In this document: positions 1 through 62,411 of the stretch, one piece after another | How positions within the stretch are numbered: position 1 is the stretch's first letter | Layout of the letters: the number at the start of each line of letters is the position of its first letter | Assembly: GCF_030814695.1 (NCBI RefSeq) | Contig: NZ_JAUSVL010000001.1 | Location: forward strand, 5,182,227-5,246,226 | DNA: 64,000 nucleotides | Direction of reading: 5' to 3' | DNA from: Oligosphaera ethanolica | GTDB taxonomy: Bacteria > Verrucomicrobiota > Lentisphaeria > Oligosphaerales > Oligosphaeraceae | Notes under the pieces: generated by a model | Seen by the model: the letters and a program-made list of their open reading frames with translations, nothing else | Database searches by the model: none | What the model was told of the DNA's origin: nothing | Translations under genes and position numbers: made by a program

Positions 1-189
1 CACACTCCTTGCTCAAGCGCAACGCCAAACATCGCCACGGCATTGCCAGTGAATGGGATGGAAAAACATAAATGGACGGCCGGCCATCAAGCCGTATGCG
101 TCCGGGCGGTCGGCACGCTTAATATAATTAGCCATCGCCAAGCTGCCATGACCCACACCCCGAAAAGCCCAAAAAGCGTAATGCCTCAC

Positions 190-467
190 TCATTGATACC
201 GGCCGGTCCAAGGGACGCCAGGGACCGTGGGGACCAGTTGGCGGCGGCGCGCACTGTGGCGAGGACTCACGGACTCATGAGGCATGATCCCATGGATTGG
301 ACCGTGGGGACTTTCGGGACCACGGGGAATGACTCCCGACTTGTGGGACTGATTGGCCGACTTGTGGGACTCCTGGGAGCGCCGCCGTCCCGGCGGCATT
401 TGAGCGCTTTCGGTGCTCAAAACCTCAGCGAATGATCTTGTGCATGGTTACCAATCAACTCATCGCC
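190..467. repeat. Degenerate intergenic repeat copy (left end)
   Basis: There is no convincing gene in bases 1-499. Bases about 203-345 match the interior of the element at 26589-26911 and the inverted copy at 61731-62042; the shared core includes GGACTCATGAGGCATG and CCCATGGATTGGAC. Bases about 403-467 recur almost unchanged in inverted orientation at 11599-11661, with 38 of 40 bases identical across 428-467. Short open frames here are coincidental and resemble no protein family. Confidence 0.65.
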
Positions 468-499
468 GGCGATTGCCGCATGCTATGTGAAGAGCATTG

Positions 500-733
500 C
501 TCCTATGAAACCCGCTGCCGCAAAGGTCGGCGGAAATCAAGTTCGAATGGCTGGGCGGCAGCGGGCCGTGGGTTTCCTGCAAATTGTCCCCGGTGTTTAC
601 CCCACCGGAGTGGTTACTCCTATGAAACATGCTGCCGCAAAGGTCGGCGGAAATCAAGTTCGAATGGCTGGGCGGCGGCGGGCCGTGGGTTTCCTGCAAA
701 TTGTCCCCGGTGTTTACCCCACCGGAGTGGTTA
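500..733. repeat. Two tandem 117-bp repeat units
   Basis: Two head-to-tail units start with CTCCTATGAAAC at 500 and 617, exactly 117 bp apart. Each ends in a hairpin of the type CCCCGGTG-loop-CACCGG. The second unit runs into TTACCGATTACG, close to the terminal motif of the inverted-repeat elements elsewhere. The same unit recurs at 861 and twice at 62032-62265. Open frames crossing the units follow the repeat period and are not credible genes. Confidence 0.85.
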
Positions 734-758
734 CTTACCGATTACGTCTCGCGGCCGT

Positions 759-781
759 GGAGTGGGCGTCTCGCCCACTCC
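759..781. repeat. Perfect 10-bp hairpin between 117-bp repeat units
   Basis: GGAGTGGGCG at 759-768 pairs perfectly with CGCCCACTCC at 772-781 across a three-base loop. It lies in the 127-bp spacer between the second and third 117-bp units. No T-run follows, so it is not a clear terminator. Confidence 0.5.
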
Positions 782-860
782 GACAAGACGGCTCAATAAA
801 CCGTCCTCGTCATCCACGCCGACCGTACCCGGCCCGTCTCCCCCGCCGCATGAATAGTTA

Positions 861-977
861 CTCCTATGAAACCCGCTGCCGCAAAGGTCGGCGGAAATCA
901 AGTTCGAATGGCTGGGCGGCAGCGGGCCGTGGGTTTCCTGCAAATTGTCCCCGGTGTTTTTCCCACCGGGGTGTACA
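861..977. repeat. Third 117-bp repeat unit
   Basis: This is a single further copy of the 117-bp unit. It ends GTGTACACTGACCGATTAC, the same boundary as the array at 62032-62265. The TGACCGATTAC end is identical to the outer bases of the right-hand terminal inverted repeat at 38441-38462. Confidence 0.85.
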
Positions 978-1024
978 CTGACCGATTACTGGAAGGTGCG
1001 ATGGCCATCGCCGTTCGCCCCACC

Positions 1025-4079: not shown

Positions 4080-4251
4080 ATGATCAGACCGATCAGACCG
4101 ATCAGACCGATCAGCAATCCGATCCGTCCGATCCGTCCGATCCGTCCGATCCGTCCGATCCGTCAGCGATAAAGGACAGAAGATCAGACCGATCAGCAAT
4201 CCGATCCGTCCGATCCGTCCGATCCGTCCGATCCGTCCGATCCGTCCGATT
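4080..4251. repeat. 9-bp minisatellite (GATCAGACC / GATCCGTCC units)
   Basis: Two blocks of 9-bp units are separated by a short unique stretch (about 4168-4186). Each block starts with GATCAGACC units, passes through GATCAGCAATCC and continues with five or six GATCCGTCC units. The block structure is therefore itself duplicated. It abuts the start of the MreD-like gene. Related units occur at 12045-12116 and, in frame, at 13284-13331. Confidence 0.9.
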
Positions 4252-4410
4252 TCTACGCGAAGTAACATAAACCCTCGCGAGCCAATCCCACAGCGCTGTT
4301 TTGCGTGTTATATTTGCAGCTTGCATTTTTCGTCCCGTCGTCTGGCTCTGAGACACGCCGATGACCACATGGCTTCCGAGCTTATTCGCACAAATATCCT
4401 GCATCTACAC

Positions 4411-18085: not shown

Positions 18086-18129
18086 CGCCACCCGCAGAGC
18101 CTAGCGCGCCACCGGTATCCTTGGCCGCG

Positions 18130-18480
18130 AAGCGGCGAGCGCCATGAAGTGGCGCTGTCATCGTAGCCCAGGGCAAGCGACGCCGAAGGCGGAGCGCCGC
18201 CCTGGGTACAACGGCGACTATGTTCGTGTTCCTCGGCCTCTTTGGCCCCAGTCGGCTTCGCTGACTGGGGCCAAAGAGGCAATGGAATCAGGTAACGGCT
18301 TTCCCTTCTTGGACCATGGCGCCCGGCACTATTTATTTAGGTCGCCCTTTCATGGCTCATTTCGGGTGGGGCTCCTACCCAGGGCGGCGCGCCCTGCGGG
18401 CGCTTGCCCTGGGCTATCTTAGGCCGCGCCTTTGGCGCTGAAAACAAAAGGCCGCAAGACCGGCTGCTAGCAATGACTGA
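18130..18480. repeat. Composite hairpin repeat element
   Basis: Bases 18086-18598 hold no gene. CCTCTTTGGCCCCAGTC at 18237-18253 pairs perfectly with 18263-18279, and a CCCAGGG/CCCTGGG hairpin precedes and another follows. The right end (about 18462-18480) resembles the terminal inverted repeat of the other elements (CAATGACTGAACTATTAC). The left end is degraded and I cannot place it. Confidence 0.65.
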
Positions 18481-18598
18481 ACTATTACCTTTTCAGGTGG
18501 ATCAGCTCGTTCTACGCTCGTCCAAGCCAGCATTGTGGCGCTATATTCAGCGCGTTGTCCGCCCCTTGGTCTGCCACCTTTGCTTAAGGAGACGTGCC

Positions 18599-22140: not shown

Positions 22141-25100
22141 ATGTACAAATGTCTGTGTCTGGCCATCTTGACCATTGTCGCTACCCACGGCCTCGTCGCC
22201 ACCACGCCGCCGCTGCCGCCCGGCGCCTACGCCGAGTGGGACAGCGCCAAAGCCTGGCAGCAACACTCCGACACCCGCAGCAAAATCTGCATCAACGGCC
22301 TCTGGCAATTCCGCTCCGAACCGCGACTCCAGCCCGTCGAAAAAATCACCCCCTTCTACAGCGAGGACGGCGCCCCCGACACCAGCTGGGACATCACCAG
22401 CATGACTAACGCGACCGTCACCGGCAGTCGCGACAGCAGCCGCAAAACCCACGGCGAAGCCAGTACCCGTATCGACCTCGAGGTGCCGCCAGCAACCAAC
22501 TTCTACCACGTCACCCGCATCATTCCGGGCATACCCACCGGTGTCAAACTCGTCGCTCGCGTTGACGTCTGGTCTGAAATGGAACGCGGCGATGTCCACA
22601 TCGAGGTACAGGACTCCCGCGATTACACCTTCCACACCACCGCCGGATCCACCATCGCCCCCAAGGCCGCCTGGCAAACCATCGAATGCGAATTCATGCT
22701 GCCAAAAGATTCTCCCGGCGTCAAAATCCTCATTCCCCGCAACCACGGCTCCACCTCCGGCCTCAAAGGCCAATTTTGGCTGGACAATCTCCGCATCGTC
22801 CAGGTCGAACACCTCCCCTCGCCCGGCATCGCCTTGCCTGCCGACGACGCCTGGGGCTTCAGCAAGGTCCCCGGCTCCTGGTACGGTCGCGTCTATTGGC
22901 ATGACGACGATCCCGCTCGCAGCAAGGCCAATGACCTGCGCTTCGCCTGGTACCGCCGCGACGTCAGCATCCCCGCCGACTGGTCCGGCCGCCACGTCAG
23001 CGTCCGCCTCGACCGCGTCGCCACCGATGCCCGCGTCTATTGCAACGGCCACGACGCCGGCGCCGTGCCCTTCATGGGCGGCAGCGTCGATATCACCCCG
23101 TGGGCCGAATTCGGCAAGACTGCCAGCATCGCCGTGCTCGTCGAAGCGCGCAACAGCTGGCGCGTCATGCCGGACCTTTTTACCAAGCCAAACAAAGTCT
23201 GGGCGCAGCGGCTAAGCGCCGCCGGCATCCTCGGCGATGTCTTCCTGGAGGCTGAACCAACCGGTACCCGCCTAGGCCCCTGCCGCATCGTCACCACCGT
23301 CGCCGACCACCGCCTCCGCGTCCAGGCACCCATCATCACCGCCACCGACCTCAGCGCCGCCGACCTCAGTTGGCGCTGCGACATCCGTGACGGCGATCGT
23401 GTCGTCAAGTCTTTCACCGGCAACGCGCCCGCAGCTGCCAGCGAAATCGTTGCTGAAACGCAGTGGTCCGACGTAGAATTGTGGGACATCGATAATCCCA
23501 AGCTCTACACGCTCACCATCACACTCCTTCGCGGCGACGCCGTACTCGACCAGAGTCTGCCGCAGCGTTTCGGCTTCCGCGACTTCGTCATCCGCGGCAA
23601 ATACTTCTACCTCAACGGTGTCAAGATCAACCTCGCGTCCTGCTCCTACTGGACGCGCAAAGGCAACTGGCACACCCCCGAGGCCATCCGCCACTGGCTC
23701 GAGGGCGCCAAGGCCGCCGGCTACACTTTCGTCTATGTCGCCGGCATCGACACTCCCGGCCTGTTCCCCGCCAACCGGCCCTTCCTCGAAGCCTGCGACG
23801 AACTCGGCATGCTCGCCGCCATCACGCCAGCGGCGGTCAATTCGATCTATCGCCGCCTGGACGAGCCAGCCATTTGGAAGCAGTGGACGAAACTGGCCAG
23901 CGCCTGCGTCAACGAGCACCTCAATCACCCGTCGCTGGTGCTGTGGCGTATGAACATGAACATGCAGTGCTACGCACAAGACCAAAACCCGCTCCTGCTC
24001 GACGGCAAAATGGACTTCGAGCCCGGCACCCTCGCCGCCCTCCGAGAAGAGGCCATGCTCACCTCCAACGCCTTCGTGCGGTCCATCGACCCAACCCGCC
24101 ACACCTACAACCACGCATGCGGCAAAACTGGCGACATCTACAATCTCAACAACTACCTCGGCTGGCCGGAAATTCAGGACCACCGCGAATGGCTGCGCGT
24201 CTGGGCTACCCAAGGCGACAAGCCCCTCTACATGGCCGAACAGGCCACGCCCTACCCCGGCGATTTCCAGATGCGCGATCCGTCCGTCTGGTGGGCCAAC
24301 GAGCCCGTCATGACTGAATATGGCGCCATCGCCCTCGGCGAAAAGAGCTACGAGCTCGAAGAAGCAGACTACGTCGATTACCTCAGCTGGTGCTGGCGCC
24401 CCAAGGAACGCAAGTGGAATTCGTCCTACGGCTACTTCTGCAACAACTACCCGCCCATCCTGGATGAAGCGGCGACGCGTTACTACGAAGAGACCCTGCC
24501 CGCCTGGCGCACCTGGGGCATCTCCGGCGGCGTCAATGCCTGGGAAAATGCCTGGCGACGGCTGATCAAGCCCAATCCCGGCAGCGTCTTCCGCCAGACG
24601 CCCCCCAATCTGCCCCTCGACACCGACTGGGCCGCCCTGCAGCGCCCCGGCATATCCGCTGACGAGTGGGTGTACGACGGTGGTGGCGGCGGCGAAATTC
24701 GTTCGCTCTTCGACCTCGGCCGACCCGAAGAAATGGAGTACTACGCGCCGACCCGGCGCGGCAAAGTTTATCCCACGCTCATCGCCCCGCTCTTTGCCTA
24801 CCTCGGCGGACCGGACGATCTCTGGTACACCCAGGACCACGCCTTCCGCAGTGGCGAGACCATCGGGAAATCCCTTATCGTCATCAACGACCGCCGCCAA
24901 GCCCAGTCCTTCCAAGTCAGCTGGCAGGCATCCCGGGACGGCAAGGTCTTCGCCAGCGACAGCGCTACGCTGGACATTCCCCCGGCAGAGACCTCACACC
25001 TGCAGATCCGTTTCGCGGCGCCGACCGTGACGGCCCGCAGCGTCATCAGCATCACCGCCAAAGTCCTTGCCGGCGACGACGACGTGCCAGTCAAGCCCAT

Positions 25101-26588: not shown

Positions 26589-26911
26589 GTAATCGGTCAG
26601 CCATTGATAATGACCGGTACCAGAGGACCACTGGGACCGTGGGGACGCCTTGGCGACTGCGCGTACTGGAGCGAGGACTCACGGACTCATGAGGCATGAT
26701 CCCATGGATTGGACTATGGGGACTTTCTGGACCATGGGGAATGACGCCTTGGACGCCGAGGACCGGTTGTGGACTACGGGGACTCCGGGGACTGACTGGC
26801 GGCGGCCAGGATAGTGTCCATAGTGTCCATGGTGTCCATAAAAACGCCCAGTGTTCCGCCAGTAAAGAGGCGGCGCCGGCAGCTGGCTATTCTCAATCGC
26901 TGACCGACTAC
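26589..26911. mobile_element. MITE-like element with 22-bp terminal inverted repeats (copy 1)
   Basis: The left end GTAATCGGTCAG..CATTGATAA (26589-26610) is matched by an inverted right end TTCTCAATCG..GACCGACTAC (26890-26911). Flanks CCACCCAA and TCACCCAC agree at six of eight bases. The interior (GGACTCATGAGGCATG, CCCATGGATTGGAC) recurs at about 203-345 and in inverted form over nearly its full length at 61731-62042. It encodes no credible protein and is too small for a transposase, so it would be moved by a relative elsewhere. Confidence 0.75.
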
Positions 26912-26920
26912 TCACCCACC

Positions 26921-27266
26921 GCAATCGGTCAGTCATTGATATTTGTTGTCCCTGCGGCCTTTTTGATCGTCCGCCGCATACCGTCATCCCGGTGGTATTT
27001 GAGCGCTGAAAGCGCGATCTATGATAACCCAGGGCAAGCGACGCCGAAGGCGGAGCGTCGCCCTGGGTAACGCGCCATTATAGCTCGGGTTCCTCGGCCT
27101 CTTTGGCCCCAGTCGGCGAGGCCGACTGGGGCCAAAGAGGCAATGGAACCCGATATAACGTCTTACCGTCTTGTTCCTTGCACATTCCTTGCTGTTTTAT
27201 AGGTCGCCCTTTGGCGCTGAAAACAAAAGGCGCAGGCGAGCCGGTTATCAATGACTGACCGACTAC
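26921..27266. mobile_element. MITE-like element with 22-bp terminal inverted repeats (copy 2)
   Basis: The left end GCAATCGGTCAG..CATTGATAT (26921-26942) and the inverted right end TTATCAATGA..GACCGACTAC (27245-27266) bound an interior with two hairpins. One is CCCAGGGC...GCCCTGGG around 27033-27066. The other is a perfect 20-bp stem at 27098-27117/27121-27140 with a three-base loop. It lies only 9 bp right of the preceding element, and both are followed by TCACCC. Confidence 0.75.
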
Positions 27267-38101: not shown

Positions 38102-38160
38102 CACCGCCAGTACCCCGACCGCCCACGGCGCCTCACGGTTGCTGGCGGTGCTTGGTGTTG
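38102..38160 (+). terminator. Hairpin downstream of the giant gene
   Basis: CACCGCCAG at 38102-38110 pairs with CTGGCGGTG at 38142-38150 around a GC-rich interior. No T-run follows. A small transposon-like element is inserted 14 bp after the stem. Confidence 0.4.
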
Positions 38161-38164
38161 CGGG

Positions 38165-38462
38165 GTAATCGGTCACCCATTGAGAATTGAGCCATAGAGC
38201 TTCTGGCTGAGTCAAACGTGCCCGTTTCCCTGGCCGCGAAGCGGCAGAAGCGCTGAAAGCGCGAAACATACCAGCCCAGGGCAAGCACGCTGAAAGCGTG
38301 CGCCGCCCTGGGTACAACGGCGACCATGTTCGTGTTCCTCGGCCCCTTTTGCCCCAGTCGGCGAAGCTGACTGGAGCAAAAGGGGCAATGAAACTCACTT
38401 GCTTACCTGGGATTGACATCGGCGGCATGTTTGGCCGCCATTATCAATGGGTGACCGATTAC
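38165..38462. mobile_element. MITE-like element with perfect 8-bp target duplication
   Basis: Terminal inverted repeats GTAATCGGTCAC..CATTGAGAA (38165-38186) and TTATCAATGG..GACCGATTAC (38441-38462) differ at one position. The element is flanked on both sides by GTTGCGGG (38157-38164 and 38463-38470), a perfect 8-bp direct repeat. Interior hairpins are CCCAGGG/CCCTGGG (38275-38281/38306-38312) and CCCCTTTTGCCCCAGTC (38343-38359)/38369-38385. GTAA ends plus an 8-bp duplication are features of IS66-family transposition. Confidence 0.85.
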
Positions 38463-38498
38463 GTTGCGGGCCTGACAATTTCAGCCCGGGCGCTGCGG

Positions 38499-42477: not shown

Positions 42478-42607
42478 GGCAATACCCTCCTGAATGTCGG
42501 ACTCCATGGCGAGTTGATAAGCCGAACAAAACACCCATGCCATCAAGTGTATACGCCATTCATGGGTCTGCAAACAGCCATACCACTTTTTCGCAGCAAG
42601 CAGTCAG

Positions 42608-42654
42608 TAACCACCCCGGTGAATTCCCTGCCGGGGCAGTTACTGACCGATTAC
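42608..42654. repeat. Short remnant related to the 117-bp repeat
   Basis: GTAACCACCCCGG and CCGGGGCAGTTAC are inverted around a short spacer, and the segment ends ACTGACCGATTAC. This combines the hairpin at the end of the 117-bp unit with the element terminus. Confidence 0.5.
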
Positions 42655-43532: not shown

Positions 43533-43901
43533 GTAACCGGTTAGGGATTGATAACCAAAACTGTGGTGCCTCTACGAGGCACTGTCTGTTGGCAGGCTGC
43601 GTCCCCAGGCTAAAGCCTGGGGTTAAGCATGGTTAAGCGCCTACGGCGCAAAAACATGGATATTTAATGGTGGTGGTTTTCGACCCGAACCGGACAAAGC
43701 AAGTCGTCAGATCGGCCAAGTTCGGCCCGGAGGGCCGCACCATGCATAACCCCGGGTGAGGTGCCCGGAGGGCGCCGCAACCCGGGGTATGATAGCAGGT
43801 TAGAATTGCGCCCGGAGGGCGCCACATTGGCGAGGCACGTCGCGTCCCATGCGCCAGACAGATGCATATCGTGCATCCAATATCAATGGCTGACTGATTA
43901 C
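43533..43901. mobile_element. MITE-like element inserted in a terminator T-run
   Basis: Terminal repeats GTAACCGGTTAG..GATTGATAA (43533-43554) and ATATCAATGG..GACTGATTAC (43880-43901) are inverted. The left flank is TTTTTTTT and the right flank is CTTTTTTT, seven of eight bases alike. The insertion site lies within the T-run of the preceding terminator. Interior hairpins (GTGCCTCTACGAGGCAC; CCCCAGGCTAAAGCCTGGGG; GCGCCCGGAGGGCGC) follow the same architecture as the other elements with a different stem sequence. Confidence 0.8.
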
Positions 43902-47000: not shown

Positions 47001-48255
47001 CGTCTATGCGGACGCCGTAGCGCCCGAACGTATGATCGCCCAAGCCGCCCTCGCCAAAATCCCCGTCGGCGGCAGCGTGACACAGTCGCTCGCCCTCGAT
47101 CTCAGCCACTTGGCCGGCCGACACCACCTGATCGCCGAACTGACCACGCCCGATAAATATCAGGACCTCATGCCACGCAACAACCGCAGCCACTGGCCCT
47201 GCAAAATCAATCTCGATCTCAAGGACTTCCCCCTGCAAAAGACCATCACCATTCAGAATGGCGATGTCGATCGCGTCCTCGAACCGGTTTCTCTCAAGGT
47301 CGATTTTGCTCCGCTGCTGGACAACCAGGCCGCGCCCATCCTGGCTGACAACGTCCGCGTCTTCCAACAACTCGCCGACGGCAGCCACTGCTTGGTCGAT
47401 TACGCGCAATTCACGCCCGCAGAGGGCTTCGACGGCCTCAAGAACGCCGCCGGCGACATCGACTTCTGCTACTCGACGCCGGCAGGTGGCAGCAGCATCT
47501 TCGTCATCGCCGCCAACCAGACAACCTCGCAGCCCCTTACGAGCCAGGGCACCGGCTTCCAGCTGTCCACCATCAGGCACGGCGAGGGCAGCTACCAGGG
47601 CGACAACTATGCGCTGGCCTTCCGCGACGGCGTTATCATGGACCTGATGCCCGTCACCCCCCAAGGACCCGGCCCCGACTTCCTGTCCTCCCTCGTGGTC
47701 TCATCTGAAAGCACCGGCTGGTCTCGCGAAGAGCAAGCCGATCTGAAGCGTTTCGAACTGCTCAAAAACGGCCCGGCGCTGACCGAACTCGTGGTGGCCA
47801 AAACGCTGCGCAATGGCGTCAACTACACGAAGACCTACAAACTCTGGCCAGGGCGCTTCACGGTTATCGTGTCGCTAGACAAATCCGCCGGCGGTCTCTA
47901 CTCGCGCGGCTTCTATTGCGCCGATGCCGATTTCCTTGACGATAAAGGCAACCGCACCCGCATGGGCCTCGGCGAAGGCGCCCAGGGCATCTACAACGCC
48001 AACAAAGACCCGCAGTGGTTTGCCCTCCGCGGCGACGGCTGGGCACATTCCTGCGTGGCAACCACCACGGCTTTCGACAACATCGCCTTCTGGGACTCCA
48101 AAGGCGATACCAATAAAGGCCAGATCGGCTTCACTACCGCCAAAACCGACCAGCTCCACTACACCTACTTCATCCACAGCCAACAAGCCGACTTCGCTTT
48201 CGCCAGCAAAGACTACCAGCGCGCCAAACACCCCGCCACCGTCATCGCCGAGTAA
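44026..48255 (+). CDS. Large secreted protein with CBM9-like domain and glycoside-hydrolase-like barrel
   Basis: A 1,409-residue protein with a short signal peptide (CFFAAFIAACVGYG). Residues about 95-230 resemble a CBM9/DOMON-type carbohydrate-binding fold (LLLTLSVTDDVLMPPEADRRDWWERDSVEFWLG, FALGINDCDSPSGREGQLYYPRTW). The middle (about 440-800) looks like a TIM barrel of GH101 or DUF5696 type, with IDVTTAESLYECYDPEHPL and AGGEHGRWWGVKSLHYVEGM as candidate active-site regions. The C-terminal part is beta-rich (CARDB-like TVAFAISNVGQQASTATLRVY). The family is uncertain; it is the first gene of the carbohydrate cluster that continues to 55391. AAGGAG precedes the ATG, and a long 10-bp tandem repeat follows the stop codon. 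Confidence 0.75.
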   Translation: MLKSCFFAAFIAACVGYGEVIENAFLRVTADPQNGRIDVVDKRNGQRWQQPATAALQSTPPLTLADLSSQTKDVASAGNRIDITPAMTADAKKIDGPADCSATLHLGRTGDTLLLTLSVTDDVLMPPEADRRDWWERDSVEFWLGSTQYAIRIEPGQVEIVNANGTAMGIFAEVKRLKDGYHVAAALPLTLAVKLPIKAGLTIPFALGINDCDSPSGREGQLYYPRTWVHSQPATFLPLLLAPAPESATTAKTALTPAFQNFATLPDEDGWSWQATSSDGPTRAVRCRLVGAELQFSESAIGEDAMKRSIPSTRGFLLDSPDGALLVADYSNGHFYPLNETPFRRSAMSGGSTLDMPWIGILDMTSGGGYAVIFDSPDDVNINMAKIDLATGCTHVPQLSWAARKGQFGPDARSYRFYFTDRGGYVDLAKHWRGIAKNTGYLVTLKEKATRNPNVHKLMGAADIWGGGSLSFAQEAKAHGIDKLLINGPSSPEVTAAMNDLGYLTGRYDNYTDILPLRENEGVDSARGRIPEDCVMEQDQSRKKAWLTFDKKTQYMKRCPALWLPAAQIVMPKDLAKMPYNTRFIDVTTAESLYECYDPEHPLDRTAKRRCGEDLLAYVGETLNLVAGGEHGRWWGVKSLHYVEGMMSGGSYSWPAGHLLRPKTKDHNLWEPEKPTDRFPLYEKYGIGHETRLPLWELVFHDCISTTWYWGDATDFLIDAAPEVTAKKDAFNILYGSMPLYWVNQHGLWQRDRRAFLRSYFHVSKMHETVGMAEMLTHEFLSPDRALQRTTFSDGTIAVVNFAPEVRTIDIAGESYALPQNGFAVVGPALRQSLVARNGMQFSEVSCGDFLFRSAMTADGSGELSVMQATKLAPGRLQLTIMGKGMTLPTSHFGKRSFFAKLFGRPELSGLTAYRLDAAGSPEALVAVTVTDAGVVLPDDGTFLLLWDDAARQPDLVFGTSTAKGHYLATETPTVAFAISNVGQQASTATLRVYADAVAPERMIAQAALAKIPVGGSVTQSLALDLSHLAGRHHLIAELTTPDKYQDLMPRNNRSHWPCKINLDLKDFPLQKTITIQNGDVDRVLEPVSLKVDFAPLLDNQAAPILADNVRVFQQLADGSHCLVDYAQFTPAEGFDGLKNAAGDIDFCYSTPAGGSSIFVIAANQTTSQPLTSQGTGFQLSTIRHGEGSYQGDNYALAFRDGVIMDLMPVTPQGPGPDFLSSLVVSSESTGWSREEQADLKRFELLKNGPALTELVVAKTLRNGVNYTKTYKLWPGRFTVIVSLDKSAGGLYSRGFYCADADFLDDKGNRTRMGLGEGAQGIYNANKDPQWFALRGDGWAHSCVATTTAFDNIAFWDSKGDTNKGQIGFTTAKTDQLHYTYFIHSQQADFAFASKDYQRAKHPATVIAE

Positions 48256-48330
48256 AGCACCGACGCATGGCGACTGCTTTCGATGGCTCTCGACTGGGGG
48301 GACCGCCGGTCGCCCCAGTAAAAATCGACT

Positions 48331-48650
48331 GCTCTCGACTGCCATCGACTGCTCTCGACTGCTCTCGACTGCCATCGACTGCCATCGACTGCTCTCGACT
48401 GCTCTCGACTGGCCTCGACTGCTCTCGACTGCCATCGACTGCTCTCGACTGCCCTCGACTGCTCTCGACTGCCCTCGACTGCTCTCGACTGCTCTCGACT
48501 GCCCTCGACTGCCATCGACTGCCCTCGACTGCCCTCGACTGCCCTCGACTGCTCTCGACTGCTCTCGACTGCTCTCGACTGCTCTCGACTGCCATCGACT
48601 GCTCTCGACTGCCATCGACTGCCCTCGACTGGCCTCGACTGCCATCGACT
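48331..48650. repeat. 32-unit 10-bp tandem repeat
   Basis: Thirty-two consecutive units of 10 bp, all in perfect register, end TCGACT. Only four unit types occur: GCTC-, GCCA-, GCCC- and GGCC-TCGACT, so variation is confined to positions 2-4. A partial unit precedes at 48324-48330. The array begins about 75 bp after the stop codon of the upstream gene and ends about 130 bp before the GH43 gene. The open frames running through it on both strands are a consequence of the repeat. Confidence 0.95.
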
Positions 48651-48779
48651 GCATTTTGCGTCATTCTGGTTGAAAACCCCGTGACTACACGATAGTTTTT
48701 TGCCTGTCCTCGGAATTTGCCTTCTGGCATGCAATGATACCCCACCCACACCCTCCACCACCCAGGATTTCCACCGACC

Positions 48780-56356: not shown

Positions 56357-56502
56357 GGCTAACCCTCCTTGTTTTCCTGCACGCAAAACCAACGCCGTCA
56401 TCCCGGCAGCGTCGACCTGACAATGCTACCAAGCTACCACCTAACAAAACGTTATGCAAGTTGTTAACCACAGAAACACGCAAACTTAACCAAGTCATCC
56501 TC

Positions 56503-56679
56503 GTCCACGCTGTCCACGCTGTCCACGCTGTCCACGCTGTCCACGCTGTCCACGCTGTCCACGCTGTCCACGCTGTCCACGCTGTCCACGCTGTCCACCC
56601 TGTCCAAGCTGTCCACGCTGTCCAAGCTGTCCACGCTGTCCACGCTGTCCACGCTGTCCACGCTGTCCACTTTGTCCAC
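56503..56679. repeat. 9-bp minisatellite GTCCACGCT (19 units)
   Basis: Nineteen units of GTCCACGCT at 56503-56673 and a partial unit to 56679; a few units vary at positions 6-8 (GTCCACCCT, GTCCAAGCT, GTCCACTTT). A candidate promoter starts 22 bp later. The VHAVHAVH and SVDSVDSV frames are repeat artefacts. Confidence 0.95.
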
Positions 56680-56700
56680 GTCCACCTGTGGTTTTTCTCA

Positions 56701-56728
56701 TTGCATCTTTGCCCTGCAGCTATATAGT
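56701..56728 (+). promoter_or_regulatory. Promoter-like sequence before the candidate ncRNA
   Basis: TTGCAT at 56701-56706 and TATAGT at 56723-56728 are spaced by 16 bp. Transcription would begin near 56735, and no gene start is found downstream within the next 340 bp. Confidence 0.5.
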
Positions 56729-61730: not shown

Positions 61731-62042
61731 ATAACCGGGACGCCATTGATAACAGCCGGCCACCAGCGCCGCCTCTTTCCGGGCGGGACACTGAGCGTTT
61801 TTATGGACGCAATGGACACATCCTGGCCGTCGCGCCAGTGAGTCCCCGGTGTCCCGGCAGTCCACAACCGGTCCCCAGCGTCCAAGGCGTCATTCCCCAT
61901 GGTCCAGAAAGTCCCCACAGTCCAATCCATGGGACCATGCCTCATGAGTCCGTGAGTCCTCGCCCCAGCGCGCAGTCGCCAAGGTGTCTCCCCGGTCCCA
62001 GTGGTCCTCCGGCACCGGCAAATATCAATCACTCCTATGTAA
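61731..62042. mobile_element. Inverted, degraded copy of the 26589-26911 element
   Basis: Bases about 61731-62042 are a reverse-complement copy of the element at 26589-26911 over nearly its full length, with the core CATGCCTCATGAGTCC. The left terminal repeat retains GCCATTGATAA but the rest is degraded (17 of 22 bases); the right end retains TATCAATCAC and runs into the adjacent 117-bp repeat. No target duplication is visible. Confidence 0.65.
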
Positions 62043-62265
62043 CCTGCTGCCGCAAAGGTCGGCGGTAATCAAGGTTGAATGACTGGGCGGCGGCGGGCCG
62101 TGGGTTTCCTGCAAATTGTCCCCGGTGTTTTCCCCACCGGGGTGGTTACTCCTATGAAACACGCTGCCGCAAAGGTCGGCGGAAATCAAGGTCGGATGGC
62201 TGGACGGCGGCGGGCCGCAGGTTTCCTGCAAATTGTCCCAGCGAAGCGCCGGGGTGTACACTGAC
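62032..62265. repeat. Two tandem 117-bp repeat units (right end)
   Basis: Units begin at 62032 and 62149, exactly 117 bp apart as at 500/617. The second ends GTGTACACTGACCGATTAC like the unit at 861-977. Between 62266 and 62411 no gene is visible. Confidence 0.85.
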
Positions 62266-62411
62266 CGATTACCTTCGGCGACACTGGTCACCACACGCGT
62301 CGTTTGCACTTGGCGCCGCCGGGGTTATTGTTCGCCCGGTCTTGCCCCGCGCACACCGCCTTGGGCAACGGGGAGTAGTTCTGATAACAGAATTTCGGGA
62401 GGTCTGTACTC

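Follow-up and report, generated by a model that had tools for sequence, protein, structure and literature searches.

Short non-coding elements with IS66-type ends in Oligosphaera ethanolica and an IS66 element with matching ends in a related genome

Is a short, non-coding segment of the Oligosphaera ethanolica genome a transposon, and if so, which enzyme could have moved it? The question is raised by the element at positions 38165–38462 of the 64,000-nucleotide stretch analysed here (the window). This 298-bp element (plus strand) has GTAATCGGTCACCCATTGAGAA...TTATCAATGGGTGACCGATTAC at its two ends. The left terminal inverted repeat (TIR; 38165–38186, plus strand) and the right TIR (38441–38462, minus strand) are each 22 bp long and identical to one another at 21 of 22 positions. 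GTTGCGGG directly adjoins either side, as the left (38157–38164) and right (38463–38470) copies of a target duplication. An initial annotation had described near-perfect 22-bp inverted ends with an 8-bp flanking duplication, and both are confirmed. Between the ends lies GC-rich hairpin DNA with no transposase.

The orthologous site in a genome of the same genus (G002, contig C308) is uninterrupted. The joined flanks of the window element align to it over ~600 bp with 86% identity, gap-free at the junction and with one GTTGCGGG, so that 38165–38462 is a true insertion. Empty sites were also sought within repeats of the window's own genome (G000), where nothing usable was found; the cross-species comparison succeeded. 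Pair statistics were obtained from about 2.05 Mb (36%) of the own genome. Here, 24 of 75 convergent end pairs had a flanking match of at least 7/8 compared with 0.3 expected by permutation, and most of this signal was gone when the right flank was slid out of register. The duplication is usually 8 bp and occasionally 9 bp long: in the 298–300 bp class, 15 of 19 copies from G002 had 8/8 duplications, and among the 20 tabulated copies from the own genome there were ten with 8/8, one with 9/9, and three with 7/8. Copies lacking an 8-bp duplication, or ends mostly lacking a partner, had been named initially as observations that would speak against a transposon. Young copies showed neither, whereas in many older copies a duplication cannot be read, and at a strict threshold 132 of 282 ends have no partner. 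Family members are mostly intergenic. None of 15 perfect-duplication elements checked lies inside a spanning ORF, and restoring the site would join a long ORF in two of these 15 (425 and 502 codons).

How large is the family? The genome-wide search for the end motif that had been proposed in the initial annotation, carried out with a 19-mer end and at most three mismatches, gave 315 matches compared with one for a reversed control. An unbiased stretch of 1.195 Mb contains 143 ends; extrapolated to 5.73 Mb, this corresponds to ~690 ends and ~340 elements, or some 300–350 per genome, estimated and not counted. There are two end types, GTAATCGGTCASYSATTGATAA and GTAATCGGTCAGTGTACACCCCGG. One element may have either or both, and in many elements one end is of the first type and the other of the second. 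Element lengths range from ~120 to >1500 bp, and the most uniform class is that of 298–300 bp, with a mean column identity of 95% in an alignment of 26 copies. Among genera, only g1 and g4 have the end motif at high frequency; its numbers are modest in g9 and g6, and genomes elsewhere have no more than three each. Copies from G000 and G002 are 96–98% identical, both inside each genome and across the two, compared with 85–97% for host flanks in the same comparisons, values that would fit recent bursts of movement in the genus.

Within the window, a 12-mer end motif with at most two mismatches occurs 16 times, where 2.7 would be expected, and every shuffle gave fewer. Copies reported earlier at 26589, 26921, and 43533 are present with the flanks described, all on the plus strand. 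The first is a 323-bp member (26589–26911) with ends GTAATCGGTCAGCCATTGATAA and GTAGTCGGTCAGCGATTGAGAA and a 6/8 flanking match. It is in tandem with a 346-bp member (26921–27266) that is better fitted by a 9-bp duplication: the 9-bp target TCACCCACC lies between the two and TCACCCGCC on the far side, matching at 8/9. For the 369-bp member at 43533–43901, the 7/8 match is correct but weak evidence, as it falls in a low-complexity run of T (TTTTTTTT/CTTTTTTT). A probable longer, older member spans 178–989 (plus strand), with left end GTAATGCCTCACTCATTGATAC, the second-type right end GTAATCGGTCAGTGTACACCCC, and no target duplication seen; another probable older member at 61731–62272 (plus strand) has a degenerate left end and again GTAATCGGTCAGTGTACACCCC on the right. 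A 59-bp remnant (42596–42654) has two second-type ends, GCAAGCAGTCAGTAACCACCCC and GTAATCGGTCAGTAACTGCCCC, and no duplication, and a degenerate relative at 18101–18488 has interior modules common to the family and right end GTAATAGTTCAGTCATTGCTAG. Direct repeats of ~117–130 bp containing CCTATGAAACC are present at 500–989 and 62032–62272 and stop at the second end type inside the longer members. The window also contains tandem arrays of 10-bp and 9-bp units (e.g., CTGTCCACG, GATCCGTCC) at 48255–48700, 56458–56725, and 4082–4264.

The tandem pair in the window has counterparts elsewhere. When gaps from a right end to the following left end were below 200 bp, 12 of 14 measured 7–10 bp (about 0.3 expected if uniform). 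Such back-to-back members occur at window positions 26911–26921 and at 25051, 1020893, 1327705, 3526348, 4276277, 5209138, and 5269379 of G000:C1. Where outer flanks are readable, the spacer is often the target duplication. Neighbors are unequal in length wherever both could be measured (856/403, 1104/433, and, for the window pair, 323/346), a finding that speaks against simple tandem duplication. A tentative reading, plausible to us although we lean slightly against it, is that an IS66-type transposase preferentially re-used the exact 8–9 bp duplication beside an existing copy, leaving target-element-target-element-target arrays of different members that survive in a lineage without the transposase. 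If true, each copy would provide the next with a place to land, and the re-use would suggest a measurable target preference of IS66-type transposases.

Rearrangement may account for one case of missing duplications. Two copies in opposite orientation (4948233–4948532 and 4951839–4952138 of G000:C1; L014 and L021) have no duplication and their flanks are swapped: the left flanks CGGGCAAG and CTTGCCCG are reverse complements, as are the right flanks GGGCGCAG and CTGCGCCC. Inversion between two inverted copies gives exactly such a pattern and can explain the loss of the duplication in this one case. The flanks of a MITE in G002 (L255, G002:C502) map to G000:C1 at 224507 and 228201, about 3.7 kb from each other and oppositely oriented, an arrangement that suggests an inversion with an endpoint at the MITE copy.

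We then asked which transposase has these ends. TIRs of the IS66 family start with GTAA. The initial annotation had assigned the elements to IS66-related non-autonomous transposons and proposed looking for a full-length IS66 element with the same ends; such elements are present in relatives but were not found in the own genome. In a genome of the same family (G005), a 2566-bp element (L174:6825–9390) has GTAATCGGTCACCGATTGATAA at both ends, TTTTTCGC flanking both sides (8/8), and GTAA termini, which supports the assignment. It encodes a 591-aa protein predicted to be an IS66-family (DDE_Tnp_IS66) transposase, scoring 84.9 bits with PF03050 (cut-off 23.1) and 188.4 with NF033517 (cut-off 180). 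When ORFs of at least 100 aa were considered, DUF6788 was the only match of its second ORF. The end upstream of the transposase matches the left end of the window copy at 20/22 and 34/36 positions, the longer match including AATTGAGCCATAGAGC beyond the inverted repeat; among 159 window 36-mers starting with GTAA, the next best scored 26. No other complete autonomous element whose ends are exactly the same was found; the G005 element lies on a single MAG contig, whose end is 130 bp away. A contig position is common to G005 and the Lentisphaerae MAG ADurb.Bin082, and the PVC assignment made initially holds.

A related transposase, 49% identical to that of G005, lies between GTAATGCCTCACCGATTGATA ends in G012, with one end at a contig end. 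No transposase of this clade was found in the own genome or in two same-genus relatives (G001 and G002, fragmented and 85–88% complete). Relatives on plasmids are remote, at about 25% identity, and most carry an IS66-family annotation. A second IS66 element with ends GTAATGCGTCAGTGAAGCTGGG (L174:4330–6803, G005:C5) is found 21 bp away from the partner element. No duplication flanks this second element, and its 555-aa transposase is 37–39% identical.

The element at 38165–38462 is a MITE with IS66-type ends and not itself an IS66 element. Its TIRs recur across copies, it was inserted into an uninterrupted site with a duplication of fixed length, and it belongs to a family of multiple copies without a transposase; the autonomous element with common ends is that of G005, not one in the own genome. 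From the observed ends, duplications, empty site, copy number, and non-coding interior, together with the same-end IS66 element in a same-family genome, we infer that the family very probably consists of MITEs moved by an IS66-family DDE transposase of the G005/G012 clade and now stranded in the own genome. The transposase, which in G005 is adjoined by the DUF6788 ORF, would recognize the MITE ends (GTAATCGGTCASYSATTGA...) in trans and insert the MITE at another 8-bp target, in most cases intergenic, giving rise to the 8-bp duplication. Its later loss from the own genome would have stranded the copies. Outside the 22–39 bp ends, no similarity between the MITE and the G005 autonomous element was detectable; the interiors may be captured or rearranged hairpin DNA between two working ends and not the result of a simple internal IS deletion. 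A counterpoint is that copies 97–98% identical suggest recent movement, yet the own genome is without the clade transposase.

Could the IS66 elements resident in the own genome have moved the MITEs by cross-mobilization, in which case the family would not be stranded? The resident elements have intact reading frames, they likewise produce 8/8 duplications, and 12 of the first 15 bases of their ends (GTAAGCGYTCGCCCAGCCC) equal those of the window element. Over greater lengths, however, these ends match at only 12–13/22 and 15–17/36 positions, where the G005 element reaches 20/22 and 34/36, and G002, an incomplete MAG with young copies, has zero PF03050 matches. We rejected the resident elements as owners of the MITE ends since their ends differ, and we regard cross-mobilization despite this difference as unlikely. 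All PF03050 matches in the own genome are elements with other ends, fragments thereof, or one weak match of another kind. A weak IS66 match at 1941827 was also rejected: this 520-aa ORF belongs to a different type of transposase and does not have these ends. Separately, tandem copies of a 623-bp unit are present at about 5617.7–5619 kb of G000:C1 (L067/L068); the 3′ part of a resident IS66 element is contained in this unit.

The interiors examined, which had been described at the outset as coding for nothing, are non-coding mosaics of GC-rich hairpins. The window copy has one hairpin at 38275–38312 (plus strand; CCCAGGGC..GCACGCT GAA AGCGTGC..GCCCTGGG) and another with a 21-bp stem at 38342–38386 (plus strand; GCCCCTTTTGCCCCAGTCGGC/GCTGACTGGAGCAAAAGGGGC). 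Both show compensatory stem changes among copies, with pairing kept in the first. Folding of the window copy is much more favorable than that of shuffled sequences (z −9.2 and −10.5), and 99.5% of hairpin cells are paired across 26 copies. Five of 44 hairpin pairs are altered on both sides, amounting to 39 cells compared with 14.7 in shuffles, although kinship among the 26 copies weakens this test. The changes could reflect selection for the hairpins or arm-to-arm conversion. Strong hairpins with stems co-changing on both sides, and the intergenic location of most elements, would also suit REP/BIME-like palindromes or structural RNAs spread by an HUH (RAYT) enzyme or by recombination. We consider this very improbable: RAYT-type mobility leaves no target duplication, whereas DDE transposons are typically marked by exact 8-bp duplications and an empty site, and no Rfam family matched in the window.

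Practically negligible is the possibility that the partner is an IS1634-type transposase: although a 621-aa IS1634 transposase lies inside a 2826-bp stretch with MITE-type ends and an 8/8 duplication (G000:C1:269706–272531), the three other copies have in common with it just the inner ~2168 bp, without the outer MITE parts, and this inner unit has its own ends CCCATCTTTCTCACTT and is an IS nested in a MITE. The inserted IS1634-family IS, one of four near-identical genome copies, occupies L083:10230–12397 (G000:C1 about 270230–272397). A DUF6788 ORF at about 5265.5 kb of G000:C1, just beyond the right edge of the window, was considered as an IS66 relic and rejected, as it belongs to another IS with ends CCCACATTTCTCAC. 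In that DDE-type IS (L226:19283–19616 and L227:1–1410; G000:C1 about 5265.4–5267.6 kb), the DUF6788 ORF lies upstream of the transposase, and the IS appears to truncate a host gene. With DUF6788 present in two IS types, it accompanies different transposase families.

We found no IS66-derived MITE in the open-access literature searched. The initial annotation knew of no such family in PVC genomes, and we found no description of a Lentisphaerae MITE in the same literature. Several hundred IS66-type MITEs are present in one chromosome, while the matching transposase was detected in just 2 members of a 289-genome sample of the phylum. Because of this disparity, the family appears to be a case of stranded MITEs with a recognizable, absent partner, and one that is testable by supplying a single gene.

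Classical IS66 elements carry tnpA and tnpB, and accessory genes are not universal in the family. IS66-family elements of Paracoccus, ISPpa5a and ISPpa7, make 8-bp duplications (PMC3281130). TIRs and the 8-bp duplication are common to these and to the elements described here, and the G005 partner has the DDE_Tnp_IS66 domain. The window element differs in having no transposase, and the G005 partner in having DUF6788 beside its transposase compared with the classical tnpA/tnpB arrangement. With REP/BIME elements, the window family has in common many intergenic hairpin copies, to which it adds 22-bp terminal repeats and 8-bp duplications. Described IS-tied MITEs include MITECca01 of Cardinium, with 169 copies (PMC9769881), MITEPsy1 of Pseudomonas syringae (PMC3189936), and MITEAba12, a bacterial MITE with a known parental IS (PMC6382973). 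Like these, the window family is short, non-coding, and repeated, and has ends like those of a parental IS. It differs from the described MITEs in that the host genome lacks its parental transposase and its members vary in length from ~120 to >1500 bp. The Cardinium and P. syringae MITEs are tied to IS982 and, probably, an IS5-type element (ISPsy2), whereas the end donor of the window family is of the IS66 type.
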